This document shows, piece after piece, positions 21,647 to 25,384 of a stretch of 45,344 nucleotides of DNA. How positions within the stretch are numbered: the first letter of the stretch is position 1; each line of letters starts with the position of its first letter. The position numbers and the translations under genes are program-made. Where the stretch lies: positions 1-45,344 of the forward strand of contig JALONQ010000030.1 in NCBI GenBank assembly GCA_025454835.1, in the 5' to 3' direction. The notes under the pieces are model-generated. The model saw only the letters and a list, made by a program, of their open reading frames with translations. It was not told where the DNA came from and did no database searches. Source of the stretch: Bacteroidota bacterium (GTDB lineage: Bacteria; Bacteroidota; Ignavibacteria; UBA10030).

Positions 21647-22138
21647 ATGACTGGCGGCTCGGCTTCTCCGGCCAATGTCGGTCGCATGATCGCCCTCGCC
21701 GAAGAGGTCTTCGGCATGCGGAGCGATACGGACCAGATCTCAGTCGACCAGGAGGTCGTGGCCAGATTGGAGGCGATCCACCCGGCCACGATGGGGGAGA
21801 TGGCGGACGAGAACGGACCGATCGCCTGGATGCTCGCCATTCCGACGAGCCGGGAGGTGATGGAGCAGTTTCTGTCGAAGCGGATCAGCGAACGACAGAT
21901 CCTGGAGCGGACCTCATCGGGAGTCGAGGCGACGGCGATCTATCTCTGCTCGGCGCTGGTGTTGCCGGAACATCGCGGTAAGGGCTACGCCAAACGTCTC
22001 GCGTTGGACGCGATACGGGCGATCCGCAAGGAGCACCCGATCGAAACGCTCTACGTCTGGTCGTTCAGCGACGAAGGCCTCGCGCTGGCTCAGAAGGTCG
22101 CACGCGAAGCTGGATTGCCGCTGCGAGAGCGGGGGTAG
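21647..22138 (+). CDS. GNAT family N-acetyltransferase
   Basis: The 163-residue protein shows the acetyl-CoA binding part of the GNAT fold: ALVLPEHRGKGYAKRLALDAIRAI, with the R/Q-x-x-G-x-G/A motif read as HRGKGYA, preceded by a strand TAIYLCSALVL. The N-terminal half (AEEVFGMRSDTDQISVDQEVVARLEAIHP) is not diagnostic. The gene starts four bases after the hydroxyacid dehydrogenase stop, which argues for co-transcription. The acyl acceptor is unknown. The C-terminus ends close to the first of two REP-like hairpins. Confidence 0.75.
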   Translation: MTGGSASPANVGRMIALAEEVFGMRSDTDQISVDQEVVARLEAIHPATMGEMADENGPIAWMLAIPTSREVMEQFLSKRISERQILERTSSGVEATAIYLCSALVLPEHRGKGYAKRLALDAIRAIRKEHPIETLYVWSFSDEGLALAQKVAREAGLPLRERG

Positions 22139-22152
22139 GTCAAGCTAAGCCC

Positions 22153-22183
22153 CGTCAGGCTTCGGCTCACGCTCAGCCTGACG
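22153..22183. repeat. REP-like hairpin, left copy
   Basis: CGTCAGGCT (22153-22161) and AGCCTGACG (22175-22183) form a perfect 9-bp stem around a 13-base loop. The complement of the loop, GAGCGTGAGCCGA, matches 11 of 13 bases of the loop of the hairpin at 22626-22658, so the two are related and inverted. Confidence 0.8.
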
Positions 22184-22263
22184 TCAGTTCCGGCTGGTCC
22201 TCGGAAATCTGGTGCCTAATCATCTGTCCGTCCAGCAACATAAAACATCTGGCTGGGCGATTT

Positions 22264-22593
22264 CTATTCGGGGTCCATTCCCTCGCGGCGAAGAGGGGTG
22301 GAGCGACTTGCATTTTGGCACTTCGACAAGCGTTTCAACTGCATGATATCGCCGTCGATCAGCGCTTGCTTCTTGGCGTGTGACCAGCGTTTCAACCGCT
22401 TCTCTGTTGCAATGGCGTCTACGATTCTTTCGAAGTGTTTGCACCAGACCAACTGAACCGGTAGCCGCGAGGCAGTGTATGCAGTCGCCTTGGAGCCCCT
22501 CATGTGCTCCCTGAGACGCTCCAGGATCCGTGCCGTCACACCAACGTAGAACGTACCATCTGCGCACAGCAAGATGTAGACCCATCCTCCCAT
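22264..22593 (-). CDS. GIY-YIG domain endonuclease-like protein
   Basis: The 109-residue protein is a single GIY-YIG domain of the short UvrC-like type. GGWVYILLCADGTFYVGVTARILERLREH carries the 'VYIL-C-G-YVGVT' core with the catalytic Arg in the helix. KATAYTASRLPVQLVWCKHFERIVDAIATEKRLKRWSHAKKQALI has the Glu of the family (ATEKRLK). Members cut DNA in repair, restriction or mobile-element contexts; many small ones have no known role. The start is the ATG before GGWVYILL; upstream in-frame residues have no conservation and run into a hairpin. The gene lies exactly between two related inverted hairpins (22153-22183 and 22626-22658). A G8 tract precedes the start by four bases. Confidence 0.9.
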   Translation of the reverse strand: MGGWVYILLCADGTFYVGVTARILERLREHMRGSKATAYTASRLPVQLVWCKHFERIVDAIATEKRLKRWSHAKKQALIDGDIMQLKRLSKCQNASRSTPLRREGMDPE

Positions 22594-22597
22594 TGCA

Positions 22598-22605
22598 CCC
22601 CCCCC
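22598..22605 (-). promoter_or_regulatory. G8 tract as ribosome binding region of the GIY-YIG gene
   Basis: Eight consecutive G on the minus strand end four bases before the ATG at 22593. The tract probably supplies the Shine-Dalgarno contact and is prone to slippage. It parallels the G9 tract before the GxxExxY gene. Confidence 0.55.
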
Positions 22606-22625
22606 TGTGTTATTGTGAATCAGAG

Positions 22626-22658
22626 CCGTCATCCCGAGCGGTAGCCGAGGGATGACGG
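22626..22658. repeat. REP-like hairpin, right copy
   Basis: CCGTCATCCC (22626-22635) and GGGATGACGG (22649-22658) pair perfectly over 10 bp around the 13-base loop GAGCGGTAGCCGA. Stem bases differ from the left copy in a compensated way, while the outer CGTCA/TGACG and the loop are conserved. Confidence 0.85.
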
Positions 22659-22744
22659 GACTGCCAGTACAACCGCCCAAGAACTTTGACGTCGGGTTCA
22701 ACGCGCTCTGCCACGGCGCAGCTTGCCGCAGATTCTTCTCACCA

Positions 22745-25384
22745 TCAGCGATCCATCACGCGCGGCTCTCCTGTGATCGTCACCCGCCCCGACACTGTTC
22801 CCGTCGTCACTGCGTGCAGCCGCCCGCGCACTCCCGGTTGCTCGCCTCCAGCGCTGATGCGAACCCGCCCCGGCGTTTGAGCCATTCGGCCGCCCCCGTC
22901 CACCGATGCTAGGTCACGAGGGGTGAAGACCCGGTTGATGAGTCTCGACTCCCCCGGGGCGAGCGAAATGCGTTCGAATCCTACCAGCGAACGGAGCGGC
23001 GCCGGGCCGGACCCTCCCTCCAGCGACACATACCACTGAACGACCTCTTCGCCTGAGCGGCTTCCGGTGTTCCGCACCGTCACAGACGCTGTGATCGTGG
23101 CTCCCGTCGTGGCACGCACCGGAATGGACAACGCGTCATACGCGAACGTTGTGTAGCTCAGTCCGTATCCGAAGGGATACAGCGGCTTCCCGGCGAAGTA
23201 CCGATAGGTCCTGTTCGTCATCGCGTAGTCGTCGAACGGCGGAAGCTGTTCGACGGAACGGAAGAATGTCACCGGCAGACGGCCTGACGGATTTGTGTCG
23301 CCGAACAACACTTCGGCCACGGCCGTCCCTGCGGCCTGCCCGGGATACCAAGCCTCGACGATGGCCGGAACGTGATCCGCGGCCCAGTTGATGGCCAACG
23401 CACTGCCGTTCATGAGCACGAGCACCACCGGCGTCCCCGTTGCGACGACCGCCTTCAGCATCTCCTCCTGCTCGCGCGGTAGGTCGAGCGAGGTGCGGTC
23501 GCCGCCGGCAAAGCCTTCCACCTGTACCGGCATCTCTTCTCCCTCAAGCCGCGGGGTGAGACCCAGCACGACGATCGCGATGTCGGCGCCCTTCGCGGCG
23601 GCGACGGCTTCCTCCAGCGCATGTGGGTTCGGGATCGACCATACCAGTTGAATGAGTGCGTCCCGACGACGGTCCTCGAAGTCCAGACGGATCTGATATT
23701 CCCGCCCCGCCTCCAATCGGATCCGAGCCGTCTGCGTAAAGACGACGTGCCGGTCGGAGTATTCAGTGAGCAGCGTATCGTCTAGCCACAAGCGGAATTG
23801 GCCGAAGACCCTCGCCCCAAGGTCGTATGTTCCCGTCAGCGGTGGAACGAGAACGCCCGACCAATGGACGAAGAAGCTGTCCGCCGGCACTGACGGGATC
23901 GGCGCCGCATCCCACCAGTTGAAATCCACCTTGCCGTCGATCCGTGTTTCGATCGGCCGTCGCGGATCCCGGAGTGCGCCGTACTCTGCACGCAATCCAT
24001 GCTTGCGATCAGGGCCGGCTTCCGTGAAAAGCGCTCCTTCCGCAACCGGCACGACGATGGGCGTCTGCTCCGTCACGTTGCATCCGCGGGCGGACGTGAC
24101 GATCGTCGACGGATCGACCGCGTTCCAGATCCCCTGCAGGATCGTGACAGGGTCGAGCGGAGTGCCGTTGTAATTGCCAAGAAGTGCGTCGACGTCGTCG
24201 ATGGTCGGACCGATGACGGCGATGCGGCGAAGGTCCTTGCGGAGGGGGAGCAGGCCCCCTTCGTTCCGCAGCAACACGATGGATTTGCACGCGGCCTCGA
24301 GAGCGAGCCGGCGATGCTCGTCGCGGTCGACAACCTCCATGCTGATCGAGGCGTATGGAACTTGCGATGGAGGATCGAACATACCGAGCCGGAATCGGAC
24401 CTCCAGCGCGCGGCGCAGGGCGCGATCGATGTCGGCCTCTCGCACCAGGCCCAGCCGGAGCGCTGTCCGCAGACTGTCGAACGAGACGCCGCACTCGACG
24501 TCGGTGCCGGCCAGGAGGGCGGTGGCGGCCGCATCGGCCTGGTCGCGGGACGTGCGATGGAACTGCCAGAAGTCGGAGATGGCCCAGCAATCGGAGACGA
24601 CGTAGCCGCCGAATTTCCATTCGTCCCGCAGGATCCGCTGAAGAAGGGCGGTGCTTCCGCAACATGGCTCTCCAGAGAATCGATTGTAGGCGCACATGAC
24701 TGAAGCGACATGCGCTTCGACGACCGACGCTCGGAAGGCGGGTAGGTAGGTCTCGCGGAGATCCTGTTCGCTCACCCGTGCGTCGAACCGATGACGGTCC
24801 GGCTCCGGTCCGCTGTGGACGGCGAAATGCTTGGCCGTGGCCGCCGTCTTGAGATACCGCGGGTCATTGCCCTGCATGCCGCGAATGAAGGCGATGGCCA
24901 TGCGCGACGTGAGGTAAGGATCTTCGCCGTAGGTCTCCATCCCCCGGCCCCATCGAGGGTCACGAAGGATATTGATGTTGGGGGAGAAGAAGGTTAACCC
25001 TTCGTAGATGCCCGTCGCGCCGGTACGCAGTGCCGCATGGTGCTTGGCTCGGGCTTCATCAGACGTGGCCGTGGCCACCCGGTGCATCAGATCTGTGTCG
25101 AAGGTCGCGGCAAGGCCGATGGACTGAGGGAAGACGGTGGCTTTCCCCGCACGCGCTACACCGTGCAGCGCCTCACTCCACCAGTTGTAGGCCCGAATGC
25201 CCAACCGTTCGACCGCCGGTGCATTGTAGAGCAGTTGGCTGATCTTTTCCTCCACCGTCAGGCGACGGATGAGGTCGTCAATGCGACGATGGACCGGGAT
25301 CGCAGGATCGCGAAAGGCAGGCCGTTCGAGCGAGTCCGCCGGAGGTGCGGCAATGATCGGGATCAAGAGGAGGAGGGCGTTCAT
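22745..25384 (-). CDS. Exported GH3 family beta-glucosidase with inserted PA14 domain
   Basis: The 879-residue enzyme has a Sec signal (NALLLLIPIIAAPPA). The GH3 N-terminal barrel runs to about residue 320, with the nucleophile Asp265 in YVVSDCWAI and the family pattern EALHGVAR, PQSIGLAATFD and GMQGNDPRYLKTAATAKHFAVHSGPE. The C-terminal GH3 domain starts near IVLLRNEGGLLPL and is interrupted by a PA14 module (about 440-580) with DSFFVHWSGVLVPPLTGTYDLGARVFGQFRLWLDD. The chain then returns with IAIVVLGLTPRLEGEEM and ends in an FnIII-like part (RNTGSRSGEEVVQWYVS). GH3 enzymes release sugar from non-reducing ends; PA14 usually helps substrate binding. The exact glycosidic specificity is not readable. 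Confidence 0.95.
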   Translation of the reverse strand: MNALLLLIPIIAAPPADSLERPAFRDPAIPVHRRIDDLIRRLTVEEKISQLLYNAPAVERLGIRAYNWWSEALHGVARAGKATVFPQSIGLAATFDTDLMHRVATATSDEARAKHHAALRTGATGIYEGLTFFSPNINILRDPRWGRGMETYGEDPYLTSRMAIAFIRGMQGNDPRYLKTAATAKHFAVHSGPEPDRHRFDARVSEQDLRETYLPAFRASVVEAHVASVMCAYNRFSGEPCCGSTALLQRILRDEWKFGGYVVSDCWAISDFWQFHRTSRDQADAAATALLAGTDVECGVSFDSLRTALRLGLVREADIDRALRRALEVRFRLGMFDPPSQVPYASISMEVVDRDEHRRLALEAACKSIVLLRNEGGLLPLRKDLRRIAVIGPTIDDVDALLGNYNGTPLDPVTILQGIWNAVDPSTIVTSARGCNVTEQTPIVVPVAEGALFTEAGPDRKHGLRAEYGALRDPRRPIETRIDGKVDFNWWDAAPIPSVPADSFFVHWSGVLVPPLTGTYDLGARVFGQFRLWLDDTLLTEYSDRHVVFTQTARIRLEAGREYQIRLDFEDRRRDALIQLVWSIPNPHALEEAVAAAKGADIAIVVLGLTPRLEGEEMPVQVEGFAGGDRTSLDLPREQEEMLKAVVATGTPVVLVLMNGSALAINWAADHVPAIVEAWYPGQAAGTAVAEVLFGDTNPSGRLPVTFFRSVEQLPPFDDYAMTNRTYRYFAGKPLYPFGYGLSYTTFAYDALSIPVRATTGATITASVTVRNTGSRSGEEVVQWYVSLEGGSGPAPLRSLVGFERISLAPGESRLINRVFTPRDLASVDGGGRMAQTPGRVRISAGGEQPGVRGRLHAVTTGTVSGRVTITGEPRVMDR

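Follow-up and report, generated by a model that had tools for sequence, protein, structure and literature searches.

The window analysed here, a stretch of 45,344 nucleotides from the genome of a Bacteroidota bacterium (Ignavibacteria, UBA10030; assembly GCA_025454835.1, contig JALONQ010000030.1), contains a small gene for a GIY-YIG nuclease that is enclosed by two short hairpins of the REP type in inverted orientation. The following features were assigned:

22153..22183, minus strand: downstream hairpin (REP) with CGTC tag, 9-bp stem and the 13-nt core GAGCGTGAGCCGA, from the sequence, the genome pattern search and DNA folding (z -4.0)
22162..22174, minus strand: core GA-GC-GTGA-GC-CGA, a GNNA-capped mini-hairpin within a GA/CGA internal loop
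22264..22593, minus strand: GIY-YIG nuclease gene, 109 aa (PF01541, E 5e-13)
22627..22657, plus strand: upstream hairpin (REP), inverted relative to the downstream one, with CGTC tag and the core GAGCGGTAGCCGA (DNA folding z -4.1)
22636..22648, plus strand: core GA-GC-GGTA-GC-CGA, a GNNA-capped mini-hairpin
22153..22657, no strand: the whole putative unit REP - GIY-YIG - inverted REP, 505 bp, with a similar layout on contig C18 of the same genome

The gene and its hairpins in the window's genome

Read on the minus strand, the hairpin at 22153-22183 consists of CGTCAGGCT GAGCGTGAGCCGA AGCCTGACG, while the plus-strand reading of the hairpin at 22627-22657 is CGTCATCCC GAGCGGTAGCCGA GGGATGACG. 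Both have stems of 9 bp and loops of 13 nt that are identical at 11 of the 13 positions, and their inner arms differ by a compensated change (GGCT/AGCC versus TCCC/GGGA). The details given in the preliminary description, namely the CGTCA/TGACG ends, the similarity of the loops, the compensated inner arms and the presence of exactly one enclosed gene, were all found to be correct, this gene being a single one with a PF01541 match. No other perfect hairpin with a 9-bp stem and a 13-nt loop exists in the window, and first-order simulations of the window (n = 20) yielded 0 or 1 such hairpin each. A T-run follows neither hairpin, and an Rfam search of positions 21900-22900 returned nothing at E <= 1.

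The predicted protein carries a GIY-YIG domain with a PF01541 score above the cut-off and matches no other Pfam domain. The sole NCBIfam match, to a group I intron endonuclease, lay far under its cut-off and was rejected. In an alignment of 63 sequences (the window protein and those from 62 of the 80 named loci described below) the residues Y6, Y16, G18, R26, H30 and E64 are invariant. The catalytic residues of GIY-YIG enzymes are Tyr, Tyr, Arg and Glu. The AlphaFold model of the nuclease (pLDDT 86) was most similar in fold to UPF0213 structures (1zg2, 1ywl), followed by Slx1, a nuclease of branched DNA, at TM-scores of about 0.5; YhbQ and YazA are presumably members of UPF0213. The nuclease is under purifying selection: ten pairs gave dN/dS values of 0.03-0.22, and the window gene compared to its relative on C18 gave 0.07, dS being saturated in several of these comparisons.

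The genome of 3.2 Mb (47 contigs) was searched for the full hairpin pattern with up to 3 mismatches, giving five matches, three of them exact, and none in the reversed control. Four of the five flank two GIY-YIG genes, the one in the window (contig C45) and a second on C18, and the fifth lies on C5, a contig without a PF01541 match. Such a count had been proposed in the preliminary description with a view to both abundance and linkage to GIY-YIG genes. The linkage held, the abundance did not: five full matches in 3.2 Mb mean that the hairpins are rare, one of the two observations named there as speaking against the idea. PF01541 matches number eight in this genome, of which two have the hairpins and six do not. 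Twelve of the 23 matches to the 13-nt core lie at the C45 and C18 genes, the control total being 7. The C18 gene (L002), which is 82% identical to the window gene, is accompanied by tandem hairpin arrays, including a one-sided head-to-tail array of 28-bp units at 1060-1380.

Palindromes of a different kind lie near two more small GIY-YIG genes in the same genome, one on C15 (L003) with two consecutive CGTCCCG...CGGGACG hairpins at 314-372, the other on C34 (L006) with the palindrome GTCCCGTCCC...GGGACGGGAC at 1920-1963. These palindromes possibly represent further REP families with nucleases of their own.

Recurrence of the core beside GIY-YIG genes

When 98 genomes of the order were searched at the protein level, the nuclease was detected in 52 at E <= 1e-6, and 40 of the 99 places outside the window's own genome were analysed with 8 kb on each side where the contig allowed. 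Within 250 bp of these genes the strict core GAGCGN(N)AGYCGA occurred 35 times in 19.5 kb, as compared to nine times in 340 kb at a distance of 2-8 kb; the reversed sequence, used as a control, did not occur at the 40 loci. A loose version of the core was present within 250 bp of the gene at 21 of the 40 loci and missing from the other 19. A sister clade of the nuclease served as negative control: the strict core was found at 0 of its 9 loci and the loose core at 3, versus 11 and 18, respectively, of the 31 loci in the rest of the set.

For a wider survey, 84,980 genomes were scanned with an alignment of 27 nucleases and the best 80 of 547 loci, chosen by protein alone, were kept. These belong to Bacteroidota (38), Pseudomonadota (32), Cyanobacteriota (3), Ignavibacteriota (2), Nitrospinota (2) and Actinomycetota (1), with 2 unplaced. 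The loose core was present within 250 bp of the gene at 59 of these best 80 loci, in 212 copies, a number that is inflated by tandem arrays, which leave locus counts unaffected. Its density amounted to 5.37 per kb within 250 bp versus 0.18 per kb at 4-8 kb, a difference of about 30-fold, and to 0.08 per kb within 250 bp for the reversed control. An alphaproteobacterial core, CCTGAGGNGC, occurs at 18 of the 80 loci; one or the other was present within 500 bp at 72 loci and neither at the remaining 8. In six named phyla, with Actinomycetota represented by one locus only, the core clusters strongly around the genes of this nuclease lineage. The RPE-like core GAGCGNAGCGAA was rejected as a candidate, with 2 copies within 250 bp of these genes and 9 beyond 2 kb, and screening for tagged hairpins irrespective of the core gave a weak signal, six within 250 bp at 5 of the best 80 loci.

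Core types were compared to the nuclease tree, which is poorly resolved. Across phyla, 16 changes were required, and none of 300 within-phylum shuffles gave a number as low. The signal was weak in Alphaproteobacteria, where 20 of 300 shuffles reached as low a number (5 changes versus 7.0 after shuffling), as well as in the order set, with 35 of 300 (6 versus 7.8). On the same tree the nuclease of L115, from the gammaproteobacterium Methylobacter, is nested among cyanobacterial ones, a placement that suggests transfer between phyla.

In a survey of plasmids 36 records matched, and eight loci were read, three of them as controls. The exact core CCTGAGGTGC stands on either side of the gene on a Methylobacterium plasmid (L239), a related form of it was found at L240 and a single loose core on a Sphingobium plasmid (L241), and the locus on a Cupriavidus plasmid (L245) had no core. 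A Sinorhizobium plasmid (L242, 2897-3586) carries a more distant GIY-YIG gene with hairpins of a wholly different family, ATTCCTGTG...CACAGGAAT, on both sides. The cores were absent from the three control loci, which were yazA, yhbQ and a GIY-YIG gene of Salinivibrio.

The outer stems of the elements covary: the third and fourth pairs are of the Watson-Crick type in 86% and 84% of cases, with 32% and 31% expected from the letters. When the five letters between GAG and YCGA were left free, 179 of 231 near-gene cores read C-GNA-G, with all four nucleotides used at N (G 70, A 53, T 35, C 21), and a second class read C-YY-G with a pyrimidine dinucleotide, chiefly CTTG and CCTG. Freeing the columns singly left the others nearly fixed, except for N and the pyrimidine. 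Among the C-GNA-G cores 126 have T and 53 have C as the pyrimidine, so that in the commonest core the second inner pair is a G facing a T rather than G-C, and the full GCGNAGC is found in only 53 of the 179. A passage in PMC4686876 describes GNA and GNNA loops closed by at least two G-C pairs, including d(GCGAAGC), as extraordinarily stable DNA mini-hairpins. Both window cores are of the GNNA form with both G-C pairs present, and for these DNA folding predicts an inner hairpin of 2 bp that closes a 4-nt loop; for two GNA examples tried, the same program did not predict the inner hairpin. Alphaproteobacterial elements have longer, varied inner hairpins (33 different ones among 35), with GNA in 18 and GNNA in 1 of the 35 loops, and a further four elements have no inner hairpin. 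We infer that what is recognised is the folded DNA strand. At some REP ends of L194-L196 and L199 (Chryseobacterium), a longer stretch able to form small hairpins takes the place of the core loop.

Across 120 loci, cores within 400 bp of the gene were present on both sides in 47, upstream only in 33, downstream only in 8 and on neither side in 32, and the reading frame itself crosses a core in 39. Counted by position, 182 cores lie upstream and 138 downstream. The nearest upstream and downstream cores are oriented (+,-) in 25 of the 47 two-sided loci, and the other three combinations account for 8, 7 and 7; the window pair is (-,+), the opposite of the commonest arrangement.

In some genomes inverted core pairs are also dispersed without a nuclease gene. 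In one Dyadobacter genome a 14-nt core occurs 115 times, versus 0 in the control, and the 100 cores listed include several arrays and, counted by eye, about 20 opposite-strand neighbours within 100 bp; the other three genomes of this search had 13, 13 and 1 copies. Sixteen of 20 dispersed copies read in Chryseobacterium are inverted pairs of about 80-100 bp and four have a single core, the query itself having contained such a pair. A further tandem hairpin array exists at L157. Core abundance goes along with the presence of the enzyme: the median excess of cores over control was 10.5 where the nuclease hit was strong (30 genomes), 7.5 where it was weak (22 genomes) and 1.0 where there was none (46 genomes; strong versus none, P 3e-5, or 5e-5 without the window's genome).

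Presence, absence and exchange of the unit

Of 59 Chryseobacterium genomes compared at one site with a conserved gene on either side, 11 contain the full unit; in a further one (G143) the match begins only inside the nuclease gene. Nineteen sites without the full unit were read. Twelve have a short spacer of 38-124 bp, many of them with an unrelated or solo REP-like hairpin, and seven have a longer one of 323-768 bp, of which the ends were read. The comparison with empty sites in relatives, asked for in the preliminary description, thus shows that related species differ in whether they carry the unit at this syntenic position. A tree built from the flanks of these 30 sites requires at least seven state changes, near the mean of 9.3 obtained with shuffled states (minimum 6), and the pattern of occupied and empty sites would be the same for gain or loss. 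Five of the sites without the unit (L201, L203, L209, L211, L218) contain another recurrent hairpin-like stretch of the GGTTTAGGT...CCTTAATC kind, perhaps a separate repeat family. The same-genus relative G024 was unusable as an empty site for the window unit: the GNAT and dehydrogenase neighbours are also missing at that locus, and it is therefore not a clean one.

Sequence exchange was examined at the Chryseobacterium site. L155 and L180 share 355 bp without any difference, a stretch that takes in most of the nuclease gene and the right REP and runs just into the next gene, while their flanks are 91.3% and 86.4% identical. The flanks of L195 and L196 are 96-97% identical and their nucleases just 92.4%, with the left and right REP types swapped. 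Vertical descent fits most of the 78 pairs compared, among which conversion tracts were not general. Conversion as a way of spread would thus be read mainly from one species pair, L155/L180.

Elsewhere, the unit is inverted between the same flanking genes in two Dyadobacter (L130, L131), and similar nuclease genes have different flanks in Reyranella, Aquimarina and Pedobacter. Synteny is conserved in Winogradskyella, Chryseobacterium and Bradyrhizobium.

Relation to known systems and possible mode of spread

REPIN/RAYT systems, to which the locus had initially been likened with a GIY-YIG nuclease in place of the Y1 transposase, have several properties in common with the unit described here: a single enzyme gene between inverted palindromes, scattered inverted pairs that lack the gene, and a link between the enzyme and the abundance of its repeats. 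The gene-free pairs were found in Dyadobacter and Chryseobacterium, and copies are few in the window's genome. In contrast to the GTAG-tagged REPs and their REP-associated tyrosine transposase, the enzyme here is a GIY-YIG nuclease without HUH/Y1 chemistry and the hairpin core is GAG-[C-GNA-G]-YCGA. The repeat-flanked gene of REPIN/RAYT is a Y1 (HUH) gene, whereas the gene enclosed here matches PF01541; the unit thus resembles REPIN/RAYT in how it works, yet lacks the enzyme by which that system is defined. Y1_Tnp matches exist in 8 of 8 genomes tested (2 in the window's genome), and the core was missing beside those Y1 genes that were checked: none of 26 Y1 places in five genomes (G000, G013, G098, G099, G100; coordinates read by eye) had a listed core within 1 kb, a comparison that used 100 of 115 cores of G099, the 13-nt cores only of G000 and one 14-nt core only for G098 and G100, and that left out G053, G083 and G084. 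The nearest Y1-to-core distance was 1.26 kb, in G013, where two of the three GIY-YIG places have cores within 150 bp. The initial analogy therefore gains support from the concentration of the core at the 40 order and 80 named loci, the dispersed pairs, the co-occurrence, the syntenic presence and absence, and the 0 of 26 Y1 places, with the qualification that dispersed copies are few in the window's own genome and that the nuclease is a putative mobiliser.

The elements also partially fit the description of CGTC-tagged REPs in PMC3733652, for which a dedicated transposase was reported to be lacking (Di Nocera et al. 2013). These REPs are described as having an 8-9 bp stem, a 4-5 nt loop and a CCA tail. 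Points in common are inverted pairs, occurrence in several phyla and, in some elements, a CGTC, TGTC or CCTC tag at one end, often followed by AT. Both window hairpins bear the CGTC tag, and tags accompany 69 of 286 near-gene cores of the GAGC type and 46 of 99 of the GAGGNGC type, with 13 and 3, respectively, at the mirrored end. The CCA tail is absent from the window hairpins, and the loops of 4-5 nt differ from the 11-13 nt cores found here, unless the inner mini-hairpin is counted as the loop. The term 'GIY' does not appear in the main text of PMC3733652, and a literature search, with preprints and most subscription journals outside it, found no paper linking GIY-YIG genes with REPs among the entries listed.

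Free-standing GIY-YIG homing endonucleases resemble the unit in the small nuclease gene, the occupied and empty sites and the one conversion-like tract, and differ from it in that the window protein has no further Pfam domain, the borders are hairpin repeats and these repeats also occur without the gene. UPF0213 nucleases share the single-domain size and comprise the nearest solved structures (1zg2, 1ywl), but the yazA and yhbQ loci that were read lack flanking cores.

Our preferred reading, which we regard as probable, is that of a small REP-bounded unit with a single-domain GIY-YIG nuclease, similar to REP/REPIN systems, that may spread by nuclease-triggered gene conversion. It builds on the association of core and gene, the selection on the hairpin, the dispersal of the repeats, the polymorphism of the site and the one conversion-like tract. 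The hairpin would be recognised as folded single-stranded or extruded DNA, at which the nuclease may nick or break the DNA in a structure-dependent manner. Host repair could then copy the REP-flanked gene, or the REP pair alone, between hairpin-bearing sites, and the process would be a homing-like gene conversion and not strand transfer by a transposase. In such a system the nuclease would act autonomously and the dispersed pairs would be its non-autonomous counterparts, the roles proposed for RAYT and REPINs.

The similarity of the closest solved folds to UPF0213 and Slx1 suits another explanation, to which we assign a minor but real share of the probability. The nuclease could be a structure-specific host enzyme of the Slx1/UPF0213 type that trims or resolves REP cruciforms, the REPs spreading by replication slippage, and gene and repeats would stay together because the repeats need or regulate the enzyme. 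The tandem hairpin arrays at C18 and L157 and the synteny kept in Winogradskyella, Chryseobacterium and Bradyrhizobium fit this scenario as well, whereas the patchy presence, the differing flanks in Reyranella, Aquimarina and Pedobacter, the inverted Dyadobacter unit and the nesting of the Methylobacter nuclease have the look of a mobile element. It is rather improbable that a RAYT or other Y1 transposase encoded in the same genome mobilises the REPs, with the GIY-YIG gene as a captured passenger: such transposases are available in all eight genomes tested, but none of the 26 Y1 places is close to a listed core and the association with GIY-YIG genes recurs in six named phyla.

We see very little room for the hairpins being ordinary transcription terminators around a small gene. 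Hairpins are common downstream of genes and some empty Chryseobacterium sites bear other hairpins; the window hairpins, however, have neither a T-run nor an Rfam match, it is the asymmetric core and not the stem that is conserved, more cores lie upstream than downstream, arrays and dispersed pairs also occur, and the yazA, yhbQ and Salinivibrio loci do without cores. Several of the GIY-YIG genes are situated near contig ends, as could be expected from an assembly artefact, but artefact or chance resemblance is a negligible prospect given reversed controls of zero or near zero and the same pattern on long contigs of named isolates.

Beyond the REP-bounded unit with its putative gene conversion, a more far-reaching proposal can be made only tentatively. 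These elements may form a separate class of selfish elements across many phyla, in which a GIY-YIG nuclease recognises GNA- or GNNA-capped hairpins in single-stranded DNA, spreads them together with its own gene by cut-and-repair copying, independently of Y1 enzymes, and is the enzyme so far missing for at least some of the CGTC-type REPs. For the question of their transposase, the recurrent GIY-YIG partner offers an identified gene that lends itself to simple testing, at least where the repeats fit. If the proposal is true, two unrelated enzymes can drive families of palindromic repeats, and distant bacteria would make natural use of an already known ultra-stable DNA mini-hairpin as a recognition mark. 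The recurrence of this gene with its hairpins in distantly related bacteria suggests selfish DNA of a kind that has attracted little notice and that multiplies short palindromic repeats without relying on the usual transposase.
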